Source: an uncultured Anaerolineae bacterium
GTDB taxonomy: Bacteria; Chloroflexota; Anaerolineae; J036; Brachytrichaceae
Length of the DNA: 64,000 bases
Assembly (NCBI GenBank): GCA_938034415.1
Contig: CALHLE010000008.1
Span: 1 to 64,000, forward strand
Reading direction: 5' to 3'
In this document: positions 1 through 13,135 of the stretch, one piece after another
How positions within the stretch are numbered: the first letter of the stretch is position 1
Layout of the letters: each line of letters starts with the position of its first letter
Made by a program: the position numbers and the translations under genes
The notes under the pieces: model-generated
What the model saw: only the letters and a program-made list of their open reading frames with translations
The model's database searches: none
Told to the model about the DNA's origin: nothing

Positions 1-1398
1 GCTGCACTGATAATAAGCAACTCCACTTTCTCCATCGGCGCTCCCTCCAACTGATAATGTGGTTGGGTTCCACGTGCCTATACTGAAACCGCCTAGACTC
101 AGCGTCGGGGCGGTGGGTGGCGCATTGTCCACCAGATAAGACACGCTCGCGCCGGTGATTGTTGTATAGCCACTCTTGTAGGTGCCGTCGTAGTTACTTG
201 GGTTGAACTCCAGCCTAAAGCGGGCATATCGCCCTTGAACACCGGATAAACCCACGCTCCAACCAGCCTGGCAGTTTCCAGCAATCCCTGACCAGCTCAC
301 CGGCTCAGCCCCACTATTCCACGCTTTGTAGCGCACGTAAATATTCGCGCCGCCGGCATAGTTGGCAATCCCATGGCAGGTGACGGATTGCCAGACGCTG
401 TTCGGCTTGCCGGAATCTATCACGTTGCTGTCGTAGTTGCCAATAGCAGACGTGGGCGCAGACGCATTTTGCTGACGGATATACACAATCGACATTATTG
501 TTGGGCTTGTCGCTGTTTCAGTGCGATTCCCTATCCATATCTGATAGCGATCATTGTAGTCCAGCACTCCAAGCTTGCTGCCTACTACGATAGCACGAGT
601 GGCCCCATTAGGGGCCAAATAATCGGTGTCAAGAAACTGCCCACATAACCAGCTAACTTCAACGCTGTTTCCATTTATAACCCGTAGGCGAGCGCCAATC
701 CCATATTGTGTTGGAGGTGTATATGAGGCAAACTGAACACAAGCGTTTTGGAAGTTACTGCTCTGCTCTTGTGATCCATCATTCCAGACTAGGCTCAATG
801 TGTACCCAGGACCAACTTGATGCCTAACACCAACCCATTTGTTCGATTGAACTTGAATGAGAGCAATGTTTCGCTGACTTCCTGTAGAAAAGCTTGACTC
901 ATCATTAGCCCAGCGAATGTAAATATCAGGGTTCGCCGAAAGAGGGGCAACACCGGGAGCAGACACATCACCCAGGTAGCAGCTACCGAAACAGGCTGAA
1001 GCACGAGCATTCGGATTTCCACCGGGTGACCACAGATAGAGTCTGCCGCCAGCAGTCACAGTTGTATTTGCTCCTGCGTCCTCCAGGGCACGCCAAGAGT
1101 TCGGAGCGGAGGCGTTGATATCGTAGACTGGTGCGGGTAATCCGTTGCCAAACAAGTAGCTGATTGCGCCCAGCACGCGCCCGGATCCTGCAGAGCCCCA
1201 CTGCGACTCAACACCACGGTCGCCAACACCGCCGACATTTGGTCCGGCAGTAGGATCGCCGTAGAAATCTGCTGTCAGATTTGTCCACGCTGTTGGCCCG
1301 GCCATTGTCGGCGTCGGCTTGGGGATAAAACTGATCGCCAGCGCCATCAGCGCGACGGTCAACCACAAACCAAGACTGCGAGAGTGAGACTTCTTCAC
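1..1398 (-). CDS. Exported or surface protein, partial (C-terminus beyond window edge)
   Basis: Manual reverse-strand translation is open for 466 codons from GTG at 1398 (MKKSHSRSLGLWLTVALMALAISFIPKPTPTMAGPTAWTNLTADFYGDP...) to base 1. AAGGAGG-like RBS just upstream (complement of ~1404-1411). Signal-peptide-like N-terminus. Not in the track because it has no stop inside the window. Confidence 0.85.
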   Translation of the reverse strand, partial: MKKSHSRSLGLWLTVALMALAISFIPKPTPTMAGPTAWTNLTADFYGDPTAGPNVGGVGDRGVESQWGSAGSGRVLGAISYLFGNGLPAPVYDINASAPNSWRALEDAGANTTVTAGGRLYLWSPGGNPNARASACFGSCYLGDVSAPGVAPLSANPDIYIRWANDESSFSTGSQRNIALIQVQSNKWVGVRHQVGPGYTLSLVWNDGSQEQSSNFQNACVQFASYTPPTQYGIGARLRVINGNSVEVSWLCGQFLDTDYLAPNGATRAIVVGSKLGVLDYNDRYQIWIGNRTETATSPTIMSIVYIRQQNASAPTSAIGNYDSNVIDSGKPNSVWQSVTCHGIANYAGGANIYVRYKAWNSGAEPVSWSGIAGNCQAGWSVGLSGVQGRYARFRLEFNPSNYDGTYKSGYTTITGASVSYLVDNAPPTAPTLSLGGFSIGTWNPTTLSVGGSADGESGVAYYQCS

Positions 1399-1462
1399 GG
1401 CATGCCTCCTTATGTGATTTGTGAAACGAGACTAACGCTCACGGATACGCTCATCGTGAAAC

Positions 1463-1561
1463 ATGATAGGGGGAAAAGAGGACACCGAGAGGGCGAAAAT
1501 AGGACAACTTTAGGACACAAATAGGACATCTTTTGACATAAGGGTGTCCTTTTCGTGTCCT
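1463..1561 (-). promoter_or_regulatory. Phased TGTCCT direct-repeat operator array with a -10-like element
   Basis: On the minus strand: GATGTCCTATT TGTGTCCTAAA GTTGTCCTATT TTCGCCCTCTC GGTGTCCTCTT TTCCCCCTATCAT, exact 11-bp register, TATCAT at 1468-1463. Two further TGTCCT units in plus orientation at 1545 and 1556. Confidence 0.65.
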
Positions 1562-3001: not shown

Positions 3002-3814
3002 ATGGCAGAGACAACAGAACCTAAGGGAGCATCGGCGTCTCAACCCGCCGAGGGCGCTCAGCCCGCGGTCGAACAGGCGGCCGGCAAGGTCGCGGATAAA
3101 GCGATCGCTGCCGCAGAGGGCGCGGCGAAAGCAGCGGCTGCCAATCCTGCGCAGCCGGCCGCAGGCGCCGTAAAGTCGGCCACGCCATCAGCGGCTGCGA
3201 AGCCGACGGCGGCAGCTAAGCCTGCAGCCGCGAGCGCGGCGCCTAAACCGGCGGCCGCCGCCGCGAAAGAGAAGGAAGCGGAGGCGCCGGTCGCCGCGCC
3301 AAAAGGCGTGACGCGGCGCGAGTTCCTCAACTACGTGTGGGGCGCGTCCATGGCGCTCTTCCTGGTGCAATTCGGCGGCATCACATTCTTGTTCGCCATG
3401 CCGCGCTTCCGCGCCGGCGAGTTCGGCGGCAAGATCACCGTGCGCGCCGACGAGTTCCCGCAGCCCAATCAAGCGCCGGTCTCGAACAACGTCGGCAAGT
3501 TTTGGTTGGTGCACACCGACGCCGGCATCAACGCGCTATACAAAATCTGCACCCATCTGGGCTGCATCTTCCCGTGGAGCGACGCGGCGAAGATCTTTGC
3601 CTGCCCGTGCCACGGTTCGCAGTTCCAGCTCGACGGCACTTACATCGCCGGACCTGCGCCGCGCGACCTGGATCGTTTCACCTTTGAGGTGCTCGACGCC
3701 AGTGGCAACGTCATCGCCGCATCTACGGATGGCCAACCCATCCCGATGCCGCCGGGCGCCGACACCGTGGTCGTCAACACAGGACAGAAAATCTTGGGCA
3801 AATCGCATTTCTGA
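3002..3814 (+). CDS. Rieske [2Fe-2S] protein with Ala/Pro/Lys-rich N-terminal extension
   Basis: [10 protein letters not shown] ... CPCHGSQF ligand motifs; [11 protein letters not shown] twin-Arg plus TM; GAAGGAG RBS before ATG 3002. Confidence 0.93.
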
Positions 3815-3867
3815 TGGAGATTCGAGATCGTGTTGTGTGCTGAGAGTATAAGGAGGTAAGACCCGAT

Positions 3868-5556
3868 ATGGCCATTGTTGGACAGAAACTGGTCAAGCAG
3901 ATTCAGGCCACCGGCCTGAAGGCGACGGTGGCGCAGCGCCTCGACGATGCGTTCACCCGTTTCACGGCGGGCTTGTCGTGGAACGACGTGCGCGGCGTCT
4001 TGCGCGGCGACCCCCCGGCCAAGCCGAACCCGCGCGTGAAGCCGCACACCGAGGGGTTCTGGTTCCACATCCGCCCGACGTTCTATCACGAAGCCGTCAC
4101 CACGCTCTATCCCACCTTCCGCCTGGGACTGCTCTCGGCGCTGTTCTTCACGTTCGAGATCATCACGGGCATCTTCCTGATGATCTTCTACACGCCGTCG
4201 CCGTCCTACGCCTACGGCAACATGCTCGACATCCTGACCAACGTGCCGTTTGGCAAGTTCATGCGGGACATGCATCGCCTGGGCGCGGAAGCCATGGTGA
4301 TCGTCGTCACGCTCCACATGGCGCGCACTTTCATCACCGGCTCATACAAGAAGCCGCGCCAATTCACCTGGTTCACCGGCGTGGTGCTGCTCGGCGTCAC
4401 GCTGTTCATGTCGTTCAGCGGCTATCTGCTGCCGTGGGACCAGCTCGCGTTCTGGGCTGTGACGATCGGCACCTCGATGGCGGATGCCGTGCCCGGCATC
4501 GGCCCGCAGCTCAACCTGCTGCTCCGCGGCGCGCCCGACATTGGCGCCGGCGGCTTGCTGCGCTTCTATCTCTTCCACGTCGTGCTGTTCCCGCTGATCG
4601 GCGTGATCTTCGTCGCGGTGCACTACTACAAAGTTGTGCGTTTCGGCATCAGCCTGCCGCCGGAGATGGAGGCCATCGGCGAGGACACCGCCCGCAAGGT
4701 GCCCCCGGAGAAGCGCGTGAACTTCTTGCCGGATATCCTCACCAATGAGCTGATGTACGCCGGCGTGGCGTTCGCCGTCCTGGCCATCTCCTGCGCGACG
4801 TGGTACTCCGCTCCGCTGGAGCATCACGCCGACCCGCTGGTGACGCCGAACCACACCGTGGCCCCGTGGTACTTCTACTGGTTGCAGGGTCTGCTCAAGA
4901 TTCCACACATGATCCCGCTTCTGCCCGAAGGCATCGCTGGCGAGGTGGATCGCTTCTTCGCCAACGTCTTCGGCCTGACGCCGAAGGTGTTCTGGGGCGT
5001 GATCGTTGGCCCGCTGATGTTCGCCCTGCTGTTCGTCGTGCCTTACATTGACCCGAACCCCAGCCGCCGCTATGGCGACCGGAAGGTGATGCTCACCTTC
5101 GGCGCGCTCTTTGCCGCTGCGATCATCTACCTGTCGCTCGCCGGCATCCCCACCGGCGTACCGATCATCGGTTTCGGCTACGTGGGCGGCGACCCGGCGT
5201 CGGAAGTGGGGCAGGCCTTCATCCCCGATGAAGGCGTTGGCCCGGTGCGCTTGCTGCCATATGAACAATATGTCGTCGGCAAGTTCACGATTAGCGCACA
5301 GCCAAACACTGGTTCGGCGGGACTTGACCGACTGATCCGCGACATCCACAACGACATGGAGGCGCGCAAGGCGCGGCCTGACCCGCTAGGTAAGACGCTC
5401 TCTGCCGACGCGACCGGCTCGCTGGAGGTGAAGGAGATTCAAGCGAATCTCAAGCAGGTGATCATTACCTTGGATTACACCGACGTGAACGGCGCTCCAG
5501 CGCAATTCAAGAAGTACACCTTCCTGCATGCGCAGTCGGGTTACGCTTCTGAGTAA
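3868..5556 (+). CDS. Cytochrome b (b6/bc type, full length, with C-terminal extension)
   Basis: Haem-b TM helices (MHRLGAEAMVIVVTLHMARTF; SFSGYLLPWDQLAFWAVT), FYLFHVVLFPLIG, C-terminal TM domain; AAGGAGG RBS. Confidence 0.93.
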   Translation: MAIVGQKLVKQIQATGLKATVAQRLDDAFTRFTAGLSWNDVRGVLRGDPPAKPNPRVKPHTEGFWFHIRPTFYHEAVTTLYPTFRLGLLSALFFTFEIITGIFLMIFYTPSPSYAYGNMLDILTNVPFGKFMRDMHRLGAEAMVIVVTLHMARTFITGSYKKPRQFTWFTGVVLLGVTLFMSFSGYLLPWDQLAFWAVTIGTSMADAVPGIGPQLNLLLRGAPDIGAGGLLRFYLFHVVLFPLIGVIFVAVHYYKVVRFGISLPPEMEAIGEDTARKVPPEKRVNFLPDILTNELMYAGVAFAVLAISCATWYSAPLEHHADPLVTPNHTVAPWYFYWLQGLLKIPHMIPLLPEGIAGEVDRFFANVFGLTPKVFWGVIVGPLMFALLFVVPYIDPNPSRRYGDRKVMLTFGALFAAAIIYLSLAGIPTGVPIIGFGYVGGDPASEVGQAFIPDEGVGPVRLLPYEQYVVGKFTISAQPNTGSAGLDRLIRDIHNDMEARKARPDPLGKTLSADATGSLEVKEIQANLKQVIITLDYTDVNGAPAQFKKYTFLHAQSGYASE

Positions 5557-5558
5557 GG

Positions 5559-6527
5559 ATGGCTTTGATGAGCATCTTTAAGAAGATCGTCACCTTTCGT
5601 CCCAGCTTCACCGTACGCATCCTGACCGGCCTGATCAGCATGCTCATCCTGCTCAGCGTGTGCACGTTCATCGGCCTGGCCGATCAAACTCGCTTGAACG
5701 TGCGCGCCGCTCAATTTGACGCCCGCTCGATCGAGGCAGGCGCCAAGGTGTACTTTGAGCAATGCGCGCGCTGCCACGGCGTGAACGGTGAAGGCGTCGA
5801 GGGCTTGGGGCCGGCGCTGGCCAGCGAGCAGTTCGTCGGGCGGATCGAACTCGTCCGCGACAGCATGCAACTTCAGACGGTCAAGGTGATCAAGCCCAGC
5901 GCGCGCATGGAACAGATCGGCTGGACCGGCACGTTGAAGGATTACATCCTCAGCGTGACGGCGTCGGGCATCCCGGTCAAGACCAGTAACGTCTGGGACG
6001 TCAATCACCCGACGTTCAGCGAGCGATTCGGCGGGCCGCTGCGCGACGACCAGATTCGCGACGTTGCCAACTTCATCTTGAACTACGGGCTGAACCCGCT
6101 GCCGGACGATCAGGCGTTGCTGCCCCCTGCTCCCGGCGAGGGCATGGCGCCGCGCCCGACGCCCGTGCCGCTCACCCCGCAGCAGGAAGCCGGCCGCGAG
6201 GTCTATCTGGCCAAGGGCTGCGCGGCGTGTCACGCCATCCGCGGCGTCGGCGCGCAAGGCGCCATCGGCCCGAACCTCACACGCATCGGCGCCGTCTCGG
6301 AAGAGCGCATCGCCAGCGATAGCTACAAGACTAACTTGAAGGATCAGCCGCCTGCCACCACCGGCGCCGAGTACATCCGCCAATCCATCCTGTACCCGAA
6401 TGCCTACATCGTGGCGCAGTGTCCGCAAGGCCCCTGCCTGGCCGGCGTGATGCCGCAGAACTACGCGCAGCAGTTGACGCCGGAGGAGCTGGACAACCTG
6501 GTGGACTATCTGAACTCCCTCAGGTAG
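5559..6527 (+). CDS. Membrane-anchored diheme cytochrome c
   Basis: Two CXXCH motifs (CARCH, CAACH); N-terminal TM segment; directly follows cytochrome b. Confidence 0.92.
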   Translation: MALMSIFKKIVTFRPSFTVRILTGLISMLILLSVCTFIGLADQTRLNVRAAQFDARSIEAGAKVYFEQCARCHGVNGEGVEGLGPALASEQFVGRIELVRDSMQLQTVKVIKPSARMEQIGWTGTLKDYILSVTASGIPVKTSNVWDVNHPTFSERFGGPLRDDQIRDVANFILNYGLNPLPDDQALLPPAPGEGMAPRPTPVPLTPQQEAGREVYLAKGCAACHAIRGVGAQGAIGPNLTRIGAVSEERIASDSYKTNLKDQPPATTGAEYIRQSILYPNAYIVAQCPQGPCLAGVMPQNYAQQLTPEELDNLVDYLNSLR

Positions 6528-12313: not shown

Positions 12314-13135
12314 TTGCAGACGTCGTCCAACGATCTCGCTGCGCGCCTGATCGGCGGCGCGGCTACCGTCATCATCGCCGTCGTCTTCGGCGCGCTGGGC
12401 GGATGGTGGTTCGCGCTGCTTGTTGCGGCCGTCATCGCCCGCGCGACGTTTGAGCTATGGCAATTGCTTAGGCGCGCTGGTTATCACGCATCGCTGGCCG
12501 TAGCGCTGGGCGCGGCAGCGGCAGCCTTCGCCGGCGTTCGCCTGCCCAGTTTGTTTGCCCTCATCCCGGCGCTGACGCTGGTGTTGCTCGCATCGCTGGC
12601 CTGGCAGTTGCAACGCGCCCAGACGCGCAACTTTGGCGATTGGGCGGTGAGCTTCGCCGGCGGGTTTTACCTCGGCTGGACGGGCGGCCACCTGGCTAAA
12701 CTGATCGTCCTGCCTCCCGATGGGCGCTGGTGGCTGGCGCTGACGCTGGCCACCCTGTGGTCGGCCGACAGCATGGCCTACGTTTTTGGGCGACTGCTCG
12801 GCAAGCACAAACTCGCGCCGACCATCAGCCCCGGCAAGACTTGGGAGGGTTATACCGCCGGCCTGATTGCCAGCACCCTCGCCGGCGTCATCCTCGGCTT
12901 GTTTGCGCCCTTTGGCGTGTCCGTCGGCGCCATCGCGGGCATCCTCGTTGGCGCGTTGAGTCCCCTGGGCGACCTGATCGAATCCATGATCAAGCGTCAG
13001 GCGCACGCGAAGGACTCCGGCAATGTGATCCCCGGACACGGCGGCGTGTTTGACCGGATAGACTCGCTGCTCTGGGCCGGCGTCGTGGTGACCTATGTTG
13101 CGGCGATTGCCTTGGGAACCTTCCAGCTCCCCTGA
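12314..13135 (+). CDS. cdsA: Phosphatidate cytidylyltransferase
   Basis: SADSMAYVFGRLLGKHKLAPTISPGKTWEG ... SPLGDLIESMIKRQAHAKDSGNVIPGHGGVFDRIDSLL signature; TTG start. Confidence 0.95.
   Translation: MQTSSNDLAARLIGGAATVIIAVVFGALGGWWFALLVAAVIARATFELWQLLRRAGYHASLAVALGAAAAAFAGVRLPSLFALIPALTLVLLASLAWQLQRAQTRNFGDWAVSFAGGFYLGWTGGHLAKLIVLPPDGRWWLALTLATLWSADSMAYVFGRLLGKHKLAPTISPGKTWEGYTAGLIASTLAGVILGLFAPFGVSVGAIAGILVGALSPLGDLIESMIKRQAHAKDSGNVIPGHGGVFDRIDSLLWAGVVVTYVAAIALGTFQLP

Follow-up and report, generated by a model that had tools for sequence, protein, structure and literature searches.

Upstream of an exported surface-protein gene, the window (the whole 64,000-nucleotide stretch of DNA that was analysed) carries a row of five hexamers in exact 11-bp register. 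Comparison with related genomes supports reading this array as a real, conserved and putatively activator-type phased multi-site operator. In relatives, rows of this kind are found at the promoters of a large regulator family, and the array is therefore probably a docking strip for one member of that family. We give about an even chance to the more specific proposal that the TGTCC units form an operator of the surface-protein gene, bound by an activator that is most likely an NB-ARC protein encoded on another contig (C27). Binding, the identity of the binder, its activating effect and the signal are what we infer from comparing sequences. The association between arrays and the regulator family is a stronger result than the assignment of the partner.

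Array and promoter architecture

The features of the locus in the study genome (G000; 2.83 Mb, 98.5% complete, 83 contigs) are as follows, with presence noted for Thermoflexales bacterium SKYG95 (G022), a member of the same bacterial family and another genus.

1..1398, minus strand: exported surface-protein gene with GTG start at 1398-1396 and a signal-peptide-like N-terminus, truncated at the contig start (base 1)
1405..1411, minus strand: ribosome-binding site AAGGAGG, just upstream of the GTG
1463..1468, minus strand: putative -10 box TATCAT of the exported-protein gene, without a consensus -35
1479..1484, minus strand: array unit 5, TGTCCT, 10 bp from the -10 box; not in G022
1490..1495, minus strand: array unit 4, CGCCCT (AGGGCG on the plus strand), in the -35 region; identical variant at the identical place in G022
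1501..1506, minus strand: array unit 3, TGTCCT (direct reading), 33 bp from the end of TGTCC to the first -10 base; also in G022
1512..1517, minus strand: array unit 2, TGTCCT, at an 11-bp step (direct reading); also in G022
1523..1528, minus strand: array unit 1, TGTCCT (direct reading); also in G022
1545..1550, plus strand: inverted unit TGTCCT, offset 22 from 1523
1556..1561, plus strand: second inverted unit TGTCCT, at an 11-bp step, offset 33 from 1523

Four TGTCCT units and one CGCCCT unit, the fourth of five, keep an exact 11-bp register on the minus strand. This confirms the sequence-only reading, which had placed AGGACA at 1479, 1501, 1512 and 1523. Pairs of the form AGGACA-N5-AGGACA with at most one mismatch occur three times in the window, all within the array, and 0.03 are expected from dinucleotide shuffles. 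Counted on the same strand, the distances to TATCAT are 33 bp for unit 3, 22 bp for unit 4 and 11 bp for unit 5. The distances first reported, 10 bp from the last unit to TATCAT and about 65 bp on to the GTG, also hold (the latter is 64 nt). A search of 1380-2000 for TTGACA-type promoters gave nothing, which leaves TATCAT without a consensus -35 partner. The two units in opposite orientation share the register, as had been claimed. No -10-like hexamer stands at a fitting distance from this plus-strand pair (by eye), and the suggested divergent control is thus unsupported.

The exported protein has no Pfam match. Among 60 relatives it has a single strong homologue, a surface protein of 1779 aa in G002 (37% identity over 375 aa). 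Further into the window lie an uppP-like undecaprenyl-diphosphatase gene (1987-2799) and genes for a Rieske protein, cytochrome b and cytochrome c (3002-6527), all named by eye from sequence and showing no sign of belonging to the array. GC-rich inverted CCCCTCCCCC/GGGGGAGGGG elements occur at 1600-1740 as well as upstream of the NB-ARC gene on G000:C27, and are apparently a dispersed intergenic repeat of this genome.

Uniqueness in the genome and recurrence in relatives

Exact TGTCCT pairs at 11 bp are confined to the array in G000, as are three-unit matches with three or fewer mismatches (reversed-pattern control, 0). The genome scan for further phased arrays that the sequence-only reading had proposed thus returned no multi-promoter regulon in G000, with no further members even when three mismatches were allowed. 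The lack of any other phased array had been named as a mark against the operator; that lack is real in G000, and the wider inference holds through the relatives.

A three-unit scan allowing two mismatches gave matches in 15 of 61 genomes. In G022 the array repeats TGTCCT-TGTCCT-TGTCCT-CGCCCT between flanks that differ from those of G000; unit 5 is missing, the distance from unit 3 to a weakly scoring TTACAT is 33 bp by eye, and the contig stops just past the array. The CGCCCT unit, earlier called degenerate, is not just decay because it sits at the same place in this second array. Most other matches in relatives lie directly at the start codon of a divergently oriented gene for an unusual regulator. 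The other flank is usually occupied by solute-binding lipoproteins, ABC permeases or aldolase-type enzymes (partly by reading). A class-wide scan of 397 genomes gave the same picture, with arrays that agree in motif, period and orientation at the promoters of regulators and transporters in relatives.

An exact three-unit scan of contigs returned at least 119 stretches. Most among the matches listed are unrelated judging by their titles, and the useful ones among them are L107, L123 (G022) and L067. The last (L067:124-180; JACPVG010000003.1, Chloroflexi NC_groundwater_778) has five TGTCC units at 11 bp plus nearby opposite-strand units and is the closest look-alike of the study array among the matches listed, with no family regulator within the 8 kb covered. 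At L249 (G376:C128, ~12606-12655), TGTCC units continue for five or more, perhaps seven, steps of 11 bp; this array precedes a gene resembling D-threonine aldolase, a pdxS-like gene is nearby, and the locus has no family regulator. Another TGTCC array (L014; G006:C1:1566488) lies upstream of a lipoprotein gene with hydrolase-like sequence and resembles a canonical array of the same genome (L023); it is possibly a target in trans. Head-to-tail 11-bp tandem repeats of the TGTCCTGAGCT kind in G074:C315, G378:C215 and G390:C295 were set aside as probably ordinary repeats that mimic the pattern.

The regulator family and its arrays

The canonical regulators beside the arrays consist of an N-terminal HTH domain, a HATPase-like part and a receiver domain (HTH-HATPase-REC). 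Neither Pfam nor NCBIfam has a family dedicated to the HTH domain. Compared with the PDB, a profile built from 27 members hits sigma factors over their HTH (1l0o chain C, E = 2e-4; also 8jzt and 8x6g). Members are present in all 61 genomes, from one copy to as many as 28. A version of 630-710 aa is encoded by many genomes and in G000 combines 7TM, GAF and the domain. An AlphaFold2 model of one domain, made without an alignment, is all-helical and too poor to use (pLDDT 53). A literature search found no paper on the family or the motif, an absence that is weak evidence of novelty, and this Chloroflexota DNA-binding domain is apparently undescribed.

Phased arrays are associated with the promoters of this family. 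Three-unit self-repeats peak at a period of 11 only, with at least 15/18 positions in 26 of 90 family upstream regions, and every other period from 7 to 23 gives 0 or 1 of 90 regions each. Three 11-bp-phased NGMCA units are present in 49 of 88 family upstream regions, compared with 0/81 promoter-like regions in the window and 2/115 in other loci; the members were partly found via arrays (nine seed sequences), and the protein profile by itself supplied the majority of the 88. GGACA/TGTCC, the motif of the study array, is the commonest class.

The position of the -10 box is also regular. A strong -10-like hexamer lies 10-60 bp away on the TGTCC strand in 44 of the 49 arrays (about 16 in shuffled flanks), and 36 of these 44 fall at 20-25, 30-33 or 42-43 bp beyond the array. 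The clustering rests on this list of offsets and not on the p-value of a Rayleigh test on -10 phase (R = 0.58), because one shuffled set reached 0.65 and periods 9-11 score alike. The study array follows both regularities, with at least three NGMCA/TGKCN units at exactly 11 bp (TGTCC three times, CGCCC, TGTCC) and, on the TGTCC strand, a -10 box 33 bp beyond unit 3 and 22 bp beyond unit 4. Its five units, where family arrays typically have three, count against a family member as binder. The same arrays at promoters of relatives and the clustered -10 positions support the earlier proposal of a putative activator-type multi-site operator for the exported protein. A good -35 is present at some family promoters and missing from others, and activator dependence is therefore something we infer.

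The recognition helix may relate to the first base of the motif. Most family arrays go with a helix R[QH]xRR and the motif GGMCA. Writing the helix as R[QH]xZR, array-bearing members pair Z=R with GGMCA in 31 of 32 cases, Z=Q with CGMCA in 7/7 and Z=W with TGMCA in 3/3. Fisher's test for Z=R with G gives p = 1e-9 with relatedness ignored. On the tree, the Q/C pairing needs at least two origins, and independent pairs (3 concordant, 0 discordant) leave the code not significant once relatedness is allowed for. Such pairs are too few for significance, and the code is offered as a hypothesis.

A candidate partner in the study genome

Two profile searches found just two G000 proteins with the domain, one of the 7TM-GAF and one of the NB-ARC type, on C22 and C27. 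The latter (895 aa; G000:C27:10752-13436) is made of HTH, NB-ARC and TPR parts. Pfam Sigma70_r4 and r4_2 match it below cut-off, and Pfam finds neither a BTAD nor an OmpR-type winged helix in it. Its helix, DDRTVRRIL (RTVRR), has Z=R and therefore fits TGTCC; the 7TM-GAF member has SDLYR. We consider the C27 protein the likeliest partner of the array, a predicted assignment that draws on the distribution and neighborhood of its homologues.

The NB-ARC type is found in 8 of the 397 class genomes, all of the same bacterial family, and the G022 copy is 51% identical over its full length. A helix D[DE]RT[VA]RRIL is common to G000, G020 and G022, and other carriers have NERSARRVL or more divergent forms. 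Orphan three-unit TGTCC arrays, lying away from a canonical member, are present in G000, G020, G022 and G006 (the L014 array). Three of these four genomes fall within the 8 NB-ARC carriers among 29 genomes (p = 0.05, hypergeometric, by hand). The helix class was picked after seeing the data, so the match looks better than it really is. The other five carriers have no orphan three-unit TGTCC array, and the G020 orphan array could belong to another member. NB-ARC homologues adjoin or lie near genes for large exported proteins in G002, G008, G015 and G022, and the strongest homologue of the study gene (G002:C73) is among these exported proteins. A weaker 11-bp repeat (15/18; GTGATCAAACT / GTGAGCAAAAT; L292:2329-2362) occurs in G002:C73 and G015:C3 between an NB-ARC paralogue and cellulase and surface-protein genes.

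Several observations bear on the assignment from the other side. The C27 gene is on a different contig from the study array, no family gene lies next to the array within its locus, and the approximately 400 bp upstream of the C27 gene, up to the contig end, contain no array. No clear array was found upstream of the NB-ARC homologues in G008, G002:C71, G015:C11 and G007. Two further points count against it: G000 has no canonical HTH-HATPase-REC member, the type that defines the family arrays, and the exported gene beside the G022 NB-ARC gene has an ordinary promoter with no array.

We suggest that copies of an activator, in G000 most likely the 895-aa HTH, NB-ARC and TPR protein, would occupy the TGTCC units as neighbors along one helix face, one per turn. 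The bound row would place RNA polymerase on a -10 box that has no proper -35, and the signal would act via the NB-ARC/TPR part, by analogy with AfsR. A broader form of the proposal is more tentative and falls somewhat short of even in our estimate. It holds that an unnamed Chloroflexota domain, carried on HATPase-receiver, 7TM-GAF or NB-ARC-TPR proteins, reads 11-bp-phased operators as a side-by-side row, that the Z residue of R[QH]xZR tracks the first base of NGMCA (R with G, Q with C, W or F with T), and that the study array is an in-trans target of the NB-ARC-TPR type in surface-protein control.

Alternative explanations

OmpR/PhoB-type regulators are common in bacteria, and PhoB repeats are of the TGTCA type. 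The period and the similar TGTC core could point to a response regulator of this type as the binder, yet a Pho-type regulon would give several arrays where G000 has one (three units, up to three mismatches), and the same-motif arrays in relatives adjoin another family; we consider this reading unlikely. A canonical HTH-HATPase-REC member, its gene either lost or absent from the assembly, is a slightly poorer candidate. Members of the GGACA class, together with arrays, are present in the genus-mates G001-G004 and G006, and the assembly is 98.5% complete in 83 contigs, but the two profile searches of G000 found the 7TM-GAF and NB-ARC proteins only and G022 also has no canonical member. Binding by a SARP/BTAD activator is more doubtful again. 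The geometry fits, since the repeats step by 11 bp and 10 bp separate unit 5 from TATCAT, under a spacing rule that is not specific to SARPs, and G000 encodes a single full BTAD protein, C29:55020, which has no link to the array, plus one weak match. Against this, the part of the array common with G022 has no -10-proximal unit 5, the same-motif arrays in relatives adjoin the family with the region-4-like HTH, and the spread of BTAD does not follow the array because BTAD is present in 27 of 29 sampled relatives and the array in G000 and G022 only. The SARP or OmpR identity proposed from the sequence is not supported; the array-associated proteins carry another HTH, related to sigma-70 region 4. 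That the array is no protein site at all is improbable: the stretch 1523-1550 allows an inverted repeat and a terminator-like hairpin to be drawn, and TGTCCTGAGCT tandem repeats exist in other genomes, but the hexamers alone repeat between differing spacers, unlike a tandem duplication, no plus-strand gene runs into the hairpin and the -10 phase of the array is kept in G022.

Significance and comparison with known systems

Gene control in the abundant, mostly uncultured Anaerolineae is little known. Arrays and domain together could make operators, -10 boxes and targets predictable, including sugar-binding lipoproteins, ABC transporters and surface proteins. If confirmed, the helix-to-base code would provide a simple test bed for HTH specificity. 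The NB-ARC-TPR member would represent a design that resembles the SARPs but uses a different DNA-binding domain.

SARPs bind direct repeats 11 or 22 bp apart, with the 3' repeat about 8 bp from the -10, and one of them, AfsR of Streptomyces, which also contains nucleotide-binding and TPR domains, recognizes a pair of 11-bp repeats over the -35 (PMC10936776). The study array resembles the sites of AfsR and large SARPs in having 11-bp direct repeats beside a -10 with a poor -35, and the C27 protein resembles AfsR in combining DNA-binding, nucleotide-binding and TPR domains. Unlike AfsR, it has a sigma-70 region-4-like HTH and no BTAD or OmpR-type winged helix in Pfam, and the distance to the -10 is one to three turns greater in most family arrays than in SARP sites. 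PhoB sites consist of two 11-bp direct repeats (PMC3978041). The family shares such repeats with PhoB/OmpR, and its canonical members have a receiver domain; it differs in a DNA-binding domain of another fold class (by profile), a HATPase-like domain between HTH and receiver, at least three units and a TGTCC core. No BTAD was found in the C27 protein, and the domain that accompanies arrays of this motif is a different one; membership of the SARP or PhoB type is thus not established. Similarity to sigma-70 region 4 or ECF-like HTHs extends over the HTH in profile comparison. In contrast to sigma factors, the family's HTH is fused to sensor or NB-ARC-TPR modules with no other sigma regions, and it goes with phased repeats rather than a -35.
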